From NCBI RefSeq assembly GCF_900110605.1, contig NZ_FOFI01000004.1, forward strand, positions 124,001-188,000: a DNA stretch of 64,000 nucleotides, written 5' to 3'. Below the pieces are notes generated by a model that searched no databases, was not told the origin of the DNA, and saw only the letters and a program-made list of their open reading frames with translations. The stretch is from Epilithonimonas lactis (GTDB lineage: Bacteria > Bacteroidota > Bacteroidia > Flavobacteriales > Weeksellaceae). Positions 28,238 to 31,872 of this stretch are shown piece after piece. The position numbers and the translations under genes are program-made. The stretch's first letter is position 1; each line of letters begins with the position of its first letter.

Positions 28238-30223
28238 TTAAAATAAATTATCATCCACAAAATTCGGCAACGTCACCTTCAAATTCGGTTCAGCTTCCAT
28301 TGCTCTTTTAATCGCAAAAACGGCACCTTCATTTCTTGCCCAGCTTCTTCGCGAAATTCCGTTGTTGACGTCCCAGAAAAGCATTGATTTTAATCTTCTG
28401 TCGGAATCATCGCTACCATCGAGCAACATCCCGAAACCACCGTTGATCACTTCTCCCCAGCCAACGCCTCCACCGTTGTGGATGCTCACCCAGGTTGCCC
28501 CACGGAAACTGTCGCCAATCACATTGTGAATCGCCATATCTGCCGTAAATCTTGAGCCGTCATAAATATTGGAAGTTTCTCTGTACGGCGAATCCGTCCC
28601 CGAAACATCGTGATGGTCTCTTCCCAAAACCACAGCTCCGATTTCTCCGTTGGCAATGGCCTTGTTGAAGGCTTCAGCGATTTTCATTCTGCCTTCTGCA
28701 TCGGCGTATAGAATTCTCGCCTGCGAACCAACGACCAGATTGTTTTCCTGAGCACCTTTGATCCACGTGATATTGTCTTTCATCTGTTGCTGGATTTCTT
28801 CCGGCGACGTTTTAATCATAGCCTCTAAAACCGCACACGCAATATCATCCGTTTTCTGCAGATCTTCCGGTTTTCCGCTGGTGCAAACCCAACGGAACGG
28901 CCCGAAACCGTAATCAAAACACATCGGTCCCATAATATCCTGAACGTAGCTTGGGTATTTGAACTCTCTACCAATCGTAGGGTTTTCTGACATTACATCA
29001 GCTCCGGCTCTGGAAGCTTCGAGTAAAAAGGCATTTCCGTAATCGAAAAAATAGGTTCCTTTCGCAGTATGTCTGTTGATGGCGGAAGCGTGTCTTCTCA
29101 AGGTTTCCTGAACTTTTTCTTTGAACAGTTCAGGGTTTTCTGCCATCATCGTATTCGATTCCTCAAAGGTCTGTCCAACCGGATAATAACCACCCGCCCA
29201 CGGATTGTGAAGTGAAGTCTGGTCTGAACCGATATCGATTCTTAAATTTTCTTTATCAAATTTCTCCCAAATATCAACGATGTTTCCAAGGTAAGCCAGA
29301 GAAACCGTTTCCTGATTTTCCTGAGCTTTTCTAACTCTCGCCACCAGTTCATCCAGATTTTCGTGAATTTCATTCACCCATTTCTGTTCGTGACGGATTT
29401 TGGTAATCTTGGGATTCACTTCCGCAATCACCGTAATGCACCCTGCAATATTTCCGGCTTTTGGCTGAGCGCCGGACATTCCGCCCAAACCTGAAGTTAC
29501 GAATAGTCCGCCTTTCGGTTCTTTATTGATTTTTCTGAAAGCATTCAAAACGGTAATCGTTGTTCCGTGCACAATTCCCTGCGGACCGATGTACATATAA
29601 GATCCGGCGGTCATTTGTCCGTACTGCGAAACACCCAGCGCATTGAATTTTTCCCAGTCATCCGGCTTGGAGTAATTTGGAATCATCATTCCGTTGGTCA
29701 CCACCACTCTCGGCGCATCTTTGTGCGAAGGAAACAATCCCATCGGATGACCGGAATACATTGTCAACGTCTGTCCGTCTGTCATCTCAGATAGATATTT
29801 CATTGTCAGAAGATACTGCGCCCAGTTGCTGAACACCGCACCATTTCCACCATAAGTAATGAGTTCGTGCGGATGTTGCGCCACGGCATAATCGAGATTG
29901 TTCTGAATCATCAGCATAATCGCTTTTGCCTGCTCAGATTTTCCGGGATATTCGGCAATATCTCTTGCTTTCATCTCGTAATCGGGACGGAAGCGGTACA
30001 TATAAATTCTGCCATATTTTTCCAGTTCTTCCCTGAATTCCGATAACAATTCTGCATGGAATTTAGGTTCGAAATAGCGCAAAGCGTTTTTCAGAGCGAG
30101 TTTTCTTTCTTCGTCTGACAGGATTTCTTTACGTTTCGGAGCGTGGTTGATGTGGGTTTCGTATGGTTTTGGCTGAGGAAGTTGGTTGGGAATTCCTTGT
30201 TGGATTTGCTGTTGGAAAGTCAT
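28238..30223 (-). CDS. hutU: Urocanate hydratase (urocanase)
   Basis: Converts urocanate to imidazolone propionate in histidine breakdown, with NAD+ as tightly bound electrophile. The 661-residue protein has the family blocks TYGGNGAVFSNWAQYLLTMKYL, MYSGHPMGLFPSH, QYGQMTAGSYMYIGPQGIVHG in shorter overlapping parts, and FRWVCTSGKPEDL, where the conserved active-site Cys lies near residue 456. It belongs to the longer Bacteroidota form; the Pseudomonas enzyme has about 560 residues. Other hut genes (hutH, hutI, hutG/ftcD) are not in the window. The gene is clearly richer in G+C than its neighbours (62% in 28441-28500 by count). Its start codon overlaps the preceding stop by one base (TAATG). 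Confidence 0.97.
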   Translation of the reverse strand: MTFQQQIQQGIPNQLPQPKPYETHINHAPKRKEILSDEERKLALKNALRYFEPKFHAELLSEFREELEKYGRIYMYRFRPDYEMKARDIAEYPGKSEQAKAIMLMIQNNLDYAVAQHPHELITYGGNGAVFSNWAQYLLTMKYLSEMTDGQTLTMYSGHPMGLFPSHKDAPRVVVTNGMMIPNYSKPDDWEKFNALGVSQYGQMTAGSYMYIGPQGIVHGTTITVLNAFRKINKEPKGGLFVTSGLGGMSGAQPKAGNIAGCITVIAEVNPKITKIRHEQKWVNEIHENLDELVARVRKAQENQETVSLAYLGNIVDIWEKFDKENLRIDIGSDQTSLHNPWAGGYYPVGQTFEESNTMMAENPELFKEKVQETLRRHASAINRHTAKGTYFFDYGNAFLLEASRAGADVMSENPTIGREFKYPSYVQDIMGPMCFDYGFGPFRWVCTSGKPEDLQKTDDIACAVLEAMIKTSPEEIQQQMKDNITWIKGAQENNLVVGSQARILYADAEGRMKIAEAFNKAIANGEIGAVVLGRDHHDVSGTDSPYRETSNIYDGSRFTADMAIHNVIGDSFRGATWVSIHNGGGVGWGEVINGGFGMLLDGSDDSDRRLKSMLFWDVNNGISRRSWARNEGAVFAIKRAMEAEPNLKVTLPNFVDDNLF

Positions 30224-30654
30224 TATATCGTTGATGGTTGTTTGTTGATAGTTGATGGATTTTTTATCGTTTTAAAGATATTTAAAATGAAAAATACAAA
30301 ACCAATGATTGTTAATAGAATTAGAACTCTACTTTCTGCATCGATACTGAGCAAAAAGTAGTTTGCAATAAATATAGTGAAATGTGTTAATGAATAAATG
30401 AAATCTGTAAATCTTCGAAGTATAAAAATAATAAAATAGCCTAATAGATATATTGGATATGTAAAAATGAATACAGAAGAGTTGTAAATAGGGTTTTTCA
30501 AAATACCATCAATATCAATGCCTCCAAAGTTTATCCTTCTATTGACACCGTAAGTTCCAATTACACTTTCCGTTGAAAAAGAATAAAGTATAATTAATAA
30601 TAAAATTGGAAAGAGGAATACGAAAAACAGATATTTTGTAAAAACTTTTCTCAT
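30223..30654 (-). CDS. Hypothetical membrane protein (143 aa) upstream of hutU
   Basis: 143 residues with three or four hydrophobic segments (about 8-26, 60-80, 86-105, 110-130). Its stop overlaps the hutU start by one base. The last dozen residues (NPSTINKQPSTI) are encoded by a repetitive GTTGATGG-type stretch, and the preceding 29 bp resemble its own upstream region, so the true 3' end may simply run through the hutU promoter. No family recognised. Confidence 0.55.
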   Translation of the reverse strand: MRKVFTKYLFFVFLFPILLLIILYSFSTESVIGTYGVNRRINFGGIDIDGILKNPIYNSSVFIFTYPIYLLGYFIIFILRRFTDFIYSLTHFTIFIANYFLLSIDAESRVLILLTIIGFVFFILNIFKTIKNPSTINKQPSTI

Positions 30655-30723: not shown

Positions 30724-30850
30724 AAATTCCCCTCCTCTGGAGGAGAGAAATTTGAAATTGTAAATTTCAGATTTCGGGGGTGGTCAATTGTGCTGAACCA
30801 CCCCGTCTTCTCCCTTTGGTCGAATCCACCCCTCCAGAGGAGGGGAATTT
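30724..30850. repeat. Hairpin-rich repeat at the 3' side of the DUF559 gene
   Basis: A perfect 20-bp inverted repeat (30724-30743 and 30831-30850), each arm itself a small hairpin CCTCC-N3-GGAGG. Between the arms is a second inverted repeat CGGGG.TGGT/ACCACCCCG. The right part (30797-30850) is a module that recurs upstream of the DUF559 gene. The right arm includes the first two bases of the DUF559 stop codon. Confidence 0.8.
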
Positions 30851-31265
30851 AACATCCGTAATTTTCGATGATGTAATTTTCCAATTCTTTCATTACCAAA
30901 GCCAAATTATTCTTTATATCAAAATCTGTAACTCTGAATATTTTCAAATTCAAAGATTCCAGATAAGTTTGTATGATTCCATCATAAACTTCTTTCTCAT
31001 CGTGACTTGAACCATCGATTTCGATAATTAATCCGAGCGTTTTAACATAAAAATCGACGATATAGTTTCCAATAATTCTTTGTCTGTCAAAATCTATGTT
31101 ATGAAATGTTCTTGCTCGAACTTGCTTCCAGAAAAGAACTTCACTTAGGATTCCAGCTTTTCTTTTTCCGGGTAAAAGCTTTTTGAGGTGAGAATTGTAG
31201 GGTAGGTGTTCAACGAAGTTCCTGCGGATGGGAACTCCGTGGATTTGGGTTAGGACTTCATTCAT
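30849..31265 (-). CDS. DUF559 endonuclease domain protein
   Basis: From the ATG at 31265 (MNEVLTQIHGVPIRRNF) the protein has 138 residues; an upstream in-frame start at 31298 lies inside the repeat module and is less likely. The order LPYNSHLKKLLPGKRKAGILSEVLFW ... FDRQRIIGNYIVDFYVKTLGLIIEIDGSSH is the DUF559 pattern: a PD-(D/E)XK-type nuclease fold related to Vsr, with likely catalytic Asp in YIVDFY, and Glu and Asp in IEIDG. It is framed on both sides by near-identical repeat modules, suggesting a mobile or selfish unit. The biochemical role of DUF559 proteins is unclear. Confidence 0.85.
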   Translation of the reverse strand: MNEVLTQIHGVPIRRNFVEHLPYNSHLKKLLPGKRKAGILSEVLFWKQVRARTFHNIDFDRQRIIGNYIVDFYVKTLGLIIEIDGSSHDEKEVYDGIIQTYLESLNLKIFRVTDFDIKNNLALVMKELENYIIENYGC

Positions 31266-31285
31266 TTGTTTGTGTTTTTTGAGTG

Positions 31286-31341
31286 ACCACCCCGTCAAAA
31301 ATTCTTCGAATTTTAGTCGCCCCTCCAGAGGAGGTGAATTT
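31286..31341. repeat. Second copy of the DUF559-flanking module (5' side)
   Basis: Begins ACCACCCCGTC, contains hairpin AAAATTC-TTC-GAATTTT, and ends CCTCCAGAGGAGGTGAATTT (19 of 20 bases equal to 30831-30850). It is a direct repeat of 30797-30850, so the DUF559 gene lies between two like-oriented copies. Confidence 0.8.
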
Positions 31342-31476: not shown

Positions 31477-31872
31477 ATGAATTACGAAGATAAAATCCAG
31501 CAATCGGAAACGCGTGTTTTCAAAGTGGTTTTCCCGAATACAACCAATCATCATAACACGATGTTTGGCGGGAAAGTAATGGAAATGATGGATGAAGTGG
31601 CTTTTATGACGGCAACTAGATTTGCAAGAAAGTCTTTTGTGACCGTAAGTTGTGACAGAATTGATTTCAAAAAACCAATTCCAGCTGATACAATTGTTGA
31701 ACTTGTTGGTCGAATAAAATACGTCGGGAACACGAGCGTGAAAGTAAATGTAGAGATTTTCGTGGAAGAAATGTACAATGATACGCGTGAAAAAGCAGTT
31801 TCAGGCGATTTTACTCTGGTAGCTATTGACGAAAATAAAAAGCCTTCCAGAATATTTAGAGACTTAAATTAA
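31477..31872 (+). CDS. Acyl-CoA thioesterase, hot-dog fold
   Basis: A 131-residue protein of the YciA/BACH class: NHHNTMFGGKVMEMMDEVAFMTATRFA contains the expected HxxxxFGGxxxxxxD pattern, with the catalytic Asp in MMDEVA. It hydrolyses acyl-CoA esters in the cytoplasm; chain-length preference is not visible. It is a single-gene unit with its own promoter and terminator. Confidence 0.92.
   Translation: MNYEDKIQQSETRVFKVVFPNTTNHHNTMFGGKVMEMMDEVAFMTATRFARKSFVTVSCDRIDFKKPIPADTIVELVGRIKYVGNTSVKVNVEIFVEEMYNDTREKAVSGDFTLVAIDENKKPSRIFRDLN

Follow-up and report, generated by a model that had tools for sequence, protein, structure and literature searches.

Between hutU (urocanate hydratase) and a thioesterase gene of Epilithonimonas lactis lies an intergenic unit in which an intact gene for a DUF559 nuclease is accompanied by three copies of a hairpin module and by no transposase (Table 1). 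The window, as the whole 64,000-nt stretch that was analysed is called here, corresponds to G000:C9:124001-188000 of a 4.09-Mb genome. Read in the orientation of the gene, the order is module, gene, module, inverted module. The original prediction had described two direct modules, both of which are present, and a third, inverted copy of a 20-bp end only. The inverted orientation stands, but this copy (M1) is a complete module, with its own central hairpin and its far end GGGGGTGGT at 30776-30784, so that the outer ends of the unit are inverted repeats. The modules had further been said to abut both ends of the gene. This holds on the stop side, where the stop codon shares 2 nt with M2, but not on the start side: the first start in the open frame, a TTG at 31298, overlaps M3, and the likely start of the gene is the ATG at 31265, 20 nt from that module. 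Between the unit and hutU there is a reading frame of 143 aa (30223-30654) that occurs in the window and in L078, is absent from L027-L031, and has no Pfam or NCBIfam match.

Table 1. Coordinates of the unit, its parts and its neighbours within the window
Feature	Position	Strand	Remarks
Whole unit: inverted module, module, DUF559 gene, module	30724..31341	.	618 bp; outermost modules in opposite orientation
DUF559 (PF04480) Vsr-like nuclease gene	30849..31265	-	138 codons + stop; motif EIDGSSHD intact
Module M3, upstream of gene, inverted relative to gene	31286..31341	+	
Module M2, directly downstream of gene	30797..30850	+	Central hairpin tagged CGTC ... TCCA
Module M1, complete inverted copy, outer end of unit	30724..30784	-	
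M1 and M2 as inverted pair, 14-nt spacer	30729..30845	.	Shape of gene-less (MITE-like) copies
CCTCC-N3-GGAGG hairpin of M3	31322..31334	+	
CCTCC-N3-GGAGG hairpin of M2	30831..30843	+	Full palindrome 30829-30845
CCTCC-N3-GGAGG hairpin of M1	30731..30743	-	
hutU (urocanate hydratase), site neighbour downstream of unit	28238..30223	-	TIGR01228; used in empty-site test
Thioesterase gene, site neighbour on other side of unit	31477..31872	+	PF03061

The assignment of the gene to DUF559 was borne out (PF04480, E 1.7e-20, 73.3 bits against a Pfam gathering score of 20.6). PDB profiles matched the protein to 3hrl, named endonuclease-like (E 1.4e-15), and weakly to the mobile intron protein 3r3p (E 0.11), which we take to be I-Bth0305I. 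Among 20 aligned sequences E81 and D83 (alignment numbering) are invariant, H87 and D94 are conserved in at least 90%, and the core DFDRQRIIG-YIVDFYVK is identical; the AlphaFold model of the window protein has a pLDDT of 64.8, a moderate confidence. To judge by its sequence, the window protein thus has the predicted nuclease fold and the catalytic motif of DUF559. According to a Caulobacter study (PMC12907096), VsrA, which has a DUF559 domain, is required for an SOS response when a cytosine methyltransferase is missing, a phenotype that would fit DUF559 as an active DNA nuclease; mismatch repair is the role proposed there for VsrA. The window genome has one small DUF559 gene and a second PF04480 match of 23.5 bits (G000:C5:212741-213001), located towards the end of a 1344-aa frame, helicase-like by eye. 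In two relatives (L088, L103) the catalytic motif GSSHD is gone while the DUF559 gene still stands beside modules, as expected for decaying copies.

Starting from what is here termed the A end, the module reads ACCACCCC-GTC, a variable hairpin, (C)CACCCCTCC-N3-GGAGGGG and AATTT, with small departures. The 4.09 Mb contain 8 exact occurrences of CCTCC-N3-GGAGG, against none for the reversed-pattern control, and three of the eight fall inside the unit. The 11-mer ACCACCCCGTC is by itself not enriched in the window genome when one mismatch is allowed (16 matches versus 46 for the reversed control). Each of its seven exact matches continues into the remainder of the module, and the nine one-mismatch matches comprise four modules, two of them decayed, and five non-modules. 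Further modules of this genome lie at C5:125202, C6:97345, C6:491044, C7:353715, C7:803494, C8:538707 and C8:585798, and decayed ones at C8:116387 and C8:116599; none of these dispersed copies coincides with a PF04480 match.

The middles of the modules had been described as differing, hairpin-forming sequences. They do differ in sequence, yet they are palindromic: the 149 modules of relatives contain 113 distinct middles of 12-32 nt with a median perfect stem of 7 bp, a perfect stem of at least 7 bp is found in 75 of these 113 as compared with 23 of 2260 shuffles, and for 78 of the 113 the fold falls within the bottom 5% of shuffles of that middle. Structure is kept while sequence changes. Of the 149 modules of relatives, 101 have the central hairpin between the tags CGTC (before it) and CCA (after it); in the window M2 has both tags, M3 has CGTC without CCA, and M1 has neither exactly. 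Predicted central stems span 3-14 bp and are 8 or 9 bp long in 38 of 148 cases, stem length alone being scored. A known RNA family as the identity of the module was dropped, as no Rfam match reached the gathering score, either in 12 loci or around the unit, where six weak matches were found (best E 0.03); the Rfam family whalefall-1 scored 18.7 and 16 bits on two modules, against a gathering score of 37.

Association of DUF559 genes with palindromes

Linkage was assessed by scanning genome contigs and keeping the best 80 of 187 stretches that encode a relative, with a module pattern that tolerates mismatches. In this set a module lies at most 330 nt upstream of the nuclease gene in 71 of 79 cases and downstream in 75 of 80; modules stand on both sides in 68 of 79 and on at least one side in 77 of 79. 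Flanks more than 800 nt away hold 15 modules in 472,945 bp. Framing of DUF559 genes by the module, as originally predicted, therefore recurs among relatives, and random placement is refuted. The upstream module is missing from L039, L069, L078, L090, L091, L093, L098 and L101, and the downstream one from L037, L049, L078, L097 and L101. The commonest layout, in the orientation of the gene, is a module running from hairpin to A end, the gene, and a module running from A end to hairpin; a gene-less version of the same layout, with spacers of 14-79 nt, was counted 26 times in the window and the 80 loci taken together. Tandem gene-less inverted pairs with nearly identical spacers, part of this count, occur beside the nuclease gene in L035 (4400-5000) and L043 (3261-4871).

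Nuclease and module also occur together at the level of whole genomes. Among 148 genomes of the family the DUF559 profile matches 63, of which 46 score at least 100 bits, and the module pattern is found in 57, the reversed control in none. Modules are present in 41 of the 46 genomes with a match of at least 100 bits versus 16 of the 102 others (Fisher 5.7e-18, kinship ignored). Copy number with and without the nuclease differs in the genus of the window (g1, p 0.0008) and in g3 (p 0.017), and shows no significant difference in g2 (p 0.15). Genomes without a strong nuclease match hold up to 13 modules (G387), and from the 16 of 102 it follows that modules persist or move without the nuclease; they outlive it or possess another motor. 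Strongly biased orientations were seen in G318 (24 module matches, 21 to 3) and G418 (13, 11 to 2), where arrays are possible.

The association is not confined to this module. PF04480 is present in 170 of 296 Bacteroidota genomes, from which 70 loci (L186-L255; 30 given and the next 41, less one at a contig edge) were taken from the top of the list by score, so that they do not form a random sample. Among these best-scoring loci, a hairpin with pyrimidine arms lies within 300 nt of the gene in 60 of the 68 with both flanks, and on both sides in 46 of 68. Near the genes 151 hairpins were counted in 41,560 bp, and far from them 10 in 106,999 bp (3.63 versus 0.093 per kb); eight of the 68 have no hairpin by the criterion used. 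Inverted matches scoring at least 40 were found between the two flanks of the same locus in 23 of 68 cases, versus 8 of 544 mismatched pairs. Other palindromes thus similarly surround most sampled DUF559 genes. The original idea of a nuclease-and-repeat unit without a transposase, recurrent at many sites, is upheld, but its restriction to this one module was too narrow.

Beyond the Bacteroidota, 12 of 43 plasmid-collection records matching an L204-type protein were inspected. They span Pseudomonadota, Cyanobacteriota and Deinococcota (Neisseria, two Azospirillum, two Sinorhizobium, Sphingomonas, Sphingobium, Methylobacterium, Deinococcus, Synechocystis, Pseudanabaena and E. coli), with the gene between sufB and sufC in Sphingomonas and between paaD and paaZ in Deinococcus. 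Hairpins number 19 in 7,200 bp near the gene versus 5 in 43,200 bp far from it (2.64 versus 0.116 per kb), and 10 of the 12 loci have at least one near hairpin. The excess is less marked in individual loci than in the total (Neisseria: 1 near, 2 far), and the E. coli and Pseudanabaena loci score 0, with C-rich palindromes of other stems seen by eye beside the gene.

These data bear on the possibility that the palindromes are moved by another enzyme, a RAYT or other transposase, the DUF559 gene being a captured passenger. Y1 (RAYT-type) genes are indeed present in 99 of the 148 family genomes, that of the window included, and such a motor would accommodate the modules that 16 of the 102 genomes lacking a strong nuclease match possess. 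Capture would not, however, predict that many different DUF559 genes each lie between palindromes of their own. Furthermore, of 20 fetched Y1 loci none has an A end anywhere and none a pyrimidine hairpin within 300 nt of the Y1 gene, a lone hairpin motif standing about 1.2 kb away in one, and G418 (13 modules) and G321 (3 modules) have nuclease and modules with no Y1 match. RAYT was dropped as the driver, its loci being without modules, and the passenger explanation as a whole is unlikely.

Occupied, empty and interrupted sites

The neighbours of the nuclease genes form 15 clusters among 76 testable upstream flanks and 14 among 77 testable downstream flanks, the window being included in both; the downstream cluster of the window accounts for 46 of the 77. 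The location of the window's unit is common to many Chryseobacterium, and at this hutU site the distribution looks largely vertical. Strictly vertical descent, which would have counted against the original prediction, is nevertheless not what the loci show, in view of the 15 upstream clusters and of the predicted empty sites, which exist. Thus, the element is absent at hutU from L139 and L143, and a solo module near L028 and L029 is missing in the window and in L027, L030 and L078. A single-hairpin scar was found as well: L147 has one hairpin and no gene between flanks of the filled type, and decayed hairpins are seen at hutU in L146, L152 and L155.

In E. coli the DUF559 gene ycjD is present in 3365 of 5426 genomes and lies between sapF and fabI in L268 and in K-12 MG1655; L269 and L270, which lack ycjD, have an efflux gene cluster next to sapF instead. 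A 44-nt module, which by eye flanks ycjD on one side only, recurs at a median of 18 places per genome having any, and at 20 in MG1655. Between rhaA and rhaD and between ytfR and ytfQ a module-bearing stretch is present in some colinear strains and missing in others. Two E. coli comparisons showed no target-site duplication by eye, and flanks also differ there. Filled and empty alleles differ beyond a clean insertion, by roughly 15-60 bp of flank at hutU and in E. coli, and no clean insertion boundaries emerged from these comparisons.

Insertions are also found in frame within coding genes. A type ISP DNA methyltransferase is interrupted by the unit at one hinge in L083, L086, L089, L094 and L106 (the type from PF18135 in L089, the only one of the five scanned). 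The reading frame is kept at both junctions of these inserts, and translation of the upstream module gives peptides such as KNSPPLEGCPQGGVV. In L101, gene-less modules lie in frame, one of them at the methyltransferase hinge, and a nuclease unit occupies a second site in the same gene. A methyltransferase query from which the insert had been removed matched in 79 of 296 Bacteroidota genomes; among 30 fetched loci the hinge is uninterrupted in 20, carries an insert with another DUF559 in one (L134), and is unreadable by the pattern used in nine.

Among the 70 Bacteroidota loci, 27 have the DUF559 domain in an open frame that extends 150 aa or more beyond it on one side, and 22 have it in one that extends 100 aa or more on both sides. 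Ten of the in-frame loci were scanned with NCBIfam for the identity of the host frame. LeuRS (L188, L241), MetH (L196), HisF (L250) and HsdR (L193) passed the curated cut-off, and PurL/PurQ-like (L202), HsdM (L207), RecB/AddA-like (L227, L233) and IcmF (L231) matches were strong but below it, these frames being mostly cut by the ends of the fetched stretch. For PurL, HisF and formylglutamate amidohydrolase (L251) the domain is joined to the host frame at just one of its ends. Four MetH-type frames (L196 by NCBIfam; L221, L223 and L236 by eye) share one insertion point for DUF559, a linker that precedes the cobalamin-binding part.

The roll of interrupted genes matters for the reading of DUF559 and its repeats as a defence or DNA-quality system, of Vsr-like repair or restriction, with recognition sites kept near the gene for regulation. 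HsdR, HsdM and DNA methyltransferases are among the host frames, and the SOS role and proposed mismatch repair of Caulobacter VsrA (PMC12907096) point the same way. LeuRS, MetH, HisF and IcmF frames carry insertions too, though, in-frame insertion is left unexplained by regulation, and PADLOC gave a single weak match (mREase_II, E 0.0096), which together make such a system decidedly improbable. That the modules merely terminate transcription in both directions or stabilise mRNA as hairpins, on either side of a housekeeping nuclease that stays in place, with nothing moving, deserves hardly any credence: the end hairpin with AATTT resembles an intrinsic terminator by eye and the location is common to many Chryseobacterium, but a terminator-only reading was rejected because gene-less copies are dispersed and polymorphic and relatives' units lie in frame within coding regions, and distant flanks are almost free of modules.

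Relation to known repeats and a proposed route of spread

Short palindromic repeats are widespread in bacterial genomes. The closest parallel in layout is with the REP/RAYT systems (REPtrons), in which one enzyme gene is likewise flanked by palindromic repeats and many gene-less repeats lie elsewhere, single or in inverted pairs. The enzyme of the window, by contrast, is a DUF559 nuclease and not an HUH tyrosine (Y1) transposase, GTAG, the tag by which REPs are defined in PMC3733652, is absent from all three window modules, and the RAYT-type loci found here are without modules. Relative to REPtrons, then, the layout is the same and the enzyme different.

A second parallel is with the CGTC-tagged REPs, whose anatomy of CGTC, hairpin and CCA is shared by the 101 of 149 modules, as compared with the published description only. 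According to PMC3733652, these repeats apparently have no dedicated transposase, include intragenic copies, and have stems of 8-9 bp, loops of 4-5 and complementary AT at the stem base. The CGTC hairpin found here differs in belonging to a module with a second palindrome, and stems here range from 3 to 14 bp rather than the published 8-9. The Rickettsia palindromic elements, described in PMC3733652 and PMC10969869 as palindromes in frame within protein-coding genes, resemble the in-frame coding insertions of relatives' units by description, but some of the inserts here also bear a nuclease gene.

With homing endonuclease genes the unit shares filled and empty alleles at the same site, and with the EDxHD homing endonucleases (I-Bth0305I) a possibly related nuclease core and a small gene inside host genes; the 3r3p match is weak (E 0.11), however, no intron or intein was seen, and dispersed repeats stand at the borders. 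The gene-less inverted pairs, a module and an inverted module separated by a spacer of 14-79 nt, are like MITEs, although the unit is without a DDE transposase. The literature searched, which contained few subscription journals, yielded no paper linking DUF559 to repeats.

In light of these relationships, the unit is probably (at roughly 0.7) a mobile element of the REPtron type, in which a nuclease gene lies between inverted two-hairpin modules and the scattered gene-less modules and pairs are its non-autonomous copies. The pairing of nuclease and hairpin repeat suggests an unrecognised kind of mobile DNA that is free of a transposase. We infer that the nuclease cuts at the module hairpins: what it recognises would be the module or the hairpin, perhaps as a single strand or a cruciform, and it would break or nick DNA at the module or at a target. 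Host repair would then fill the break with a copy of the unit or of a bare module, in the manner of homing and with no transposase involved. Perhaps essential genes retain only those insertions that keep the frame; the translated copies would be explained in this way.

A wider proposal is more tentative, and we would put it slightly short of even odds. It holds that DUF559 proteins may be nucleases dedicated to mobilising a superfamily of palindromic repeats that spans the bacteria and would include at least part of the CGTC repeats; this transposase-free class would spread by cuts and host repair, leave gene-less copies behind, and tolerate translation within essential proteins, LeuRS and MetH among them.

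For the mobile element proposed here, the pairing with DUF559 provides a testable role for a domain of unknown function and a candidate motor for such repeats. The in-frame copies would correspond to Rickettsia palindromic elements that bear a nuclease and, provided that the segment is retained in the protein, would amount to a counterpart of inteins that does without splicing. With ycjD and 20 module places, E. coli K-12 MG1655 makes the question directly testable.
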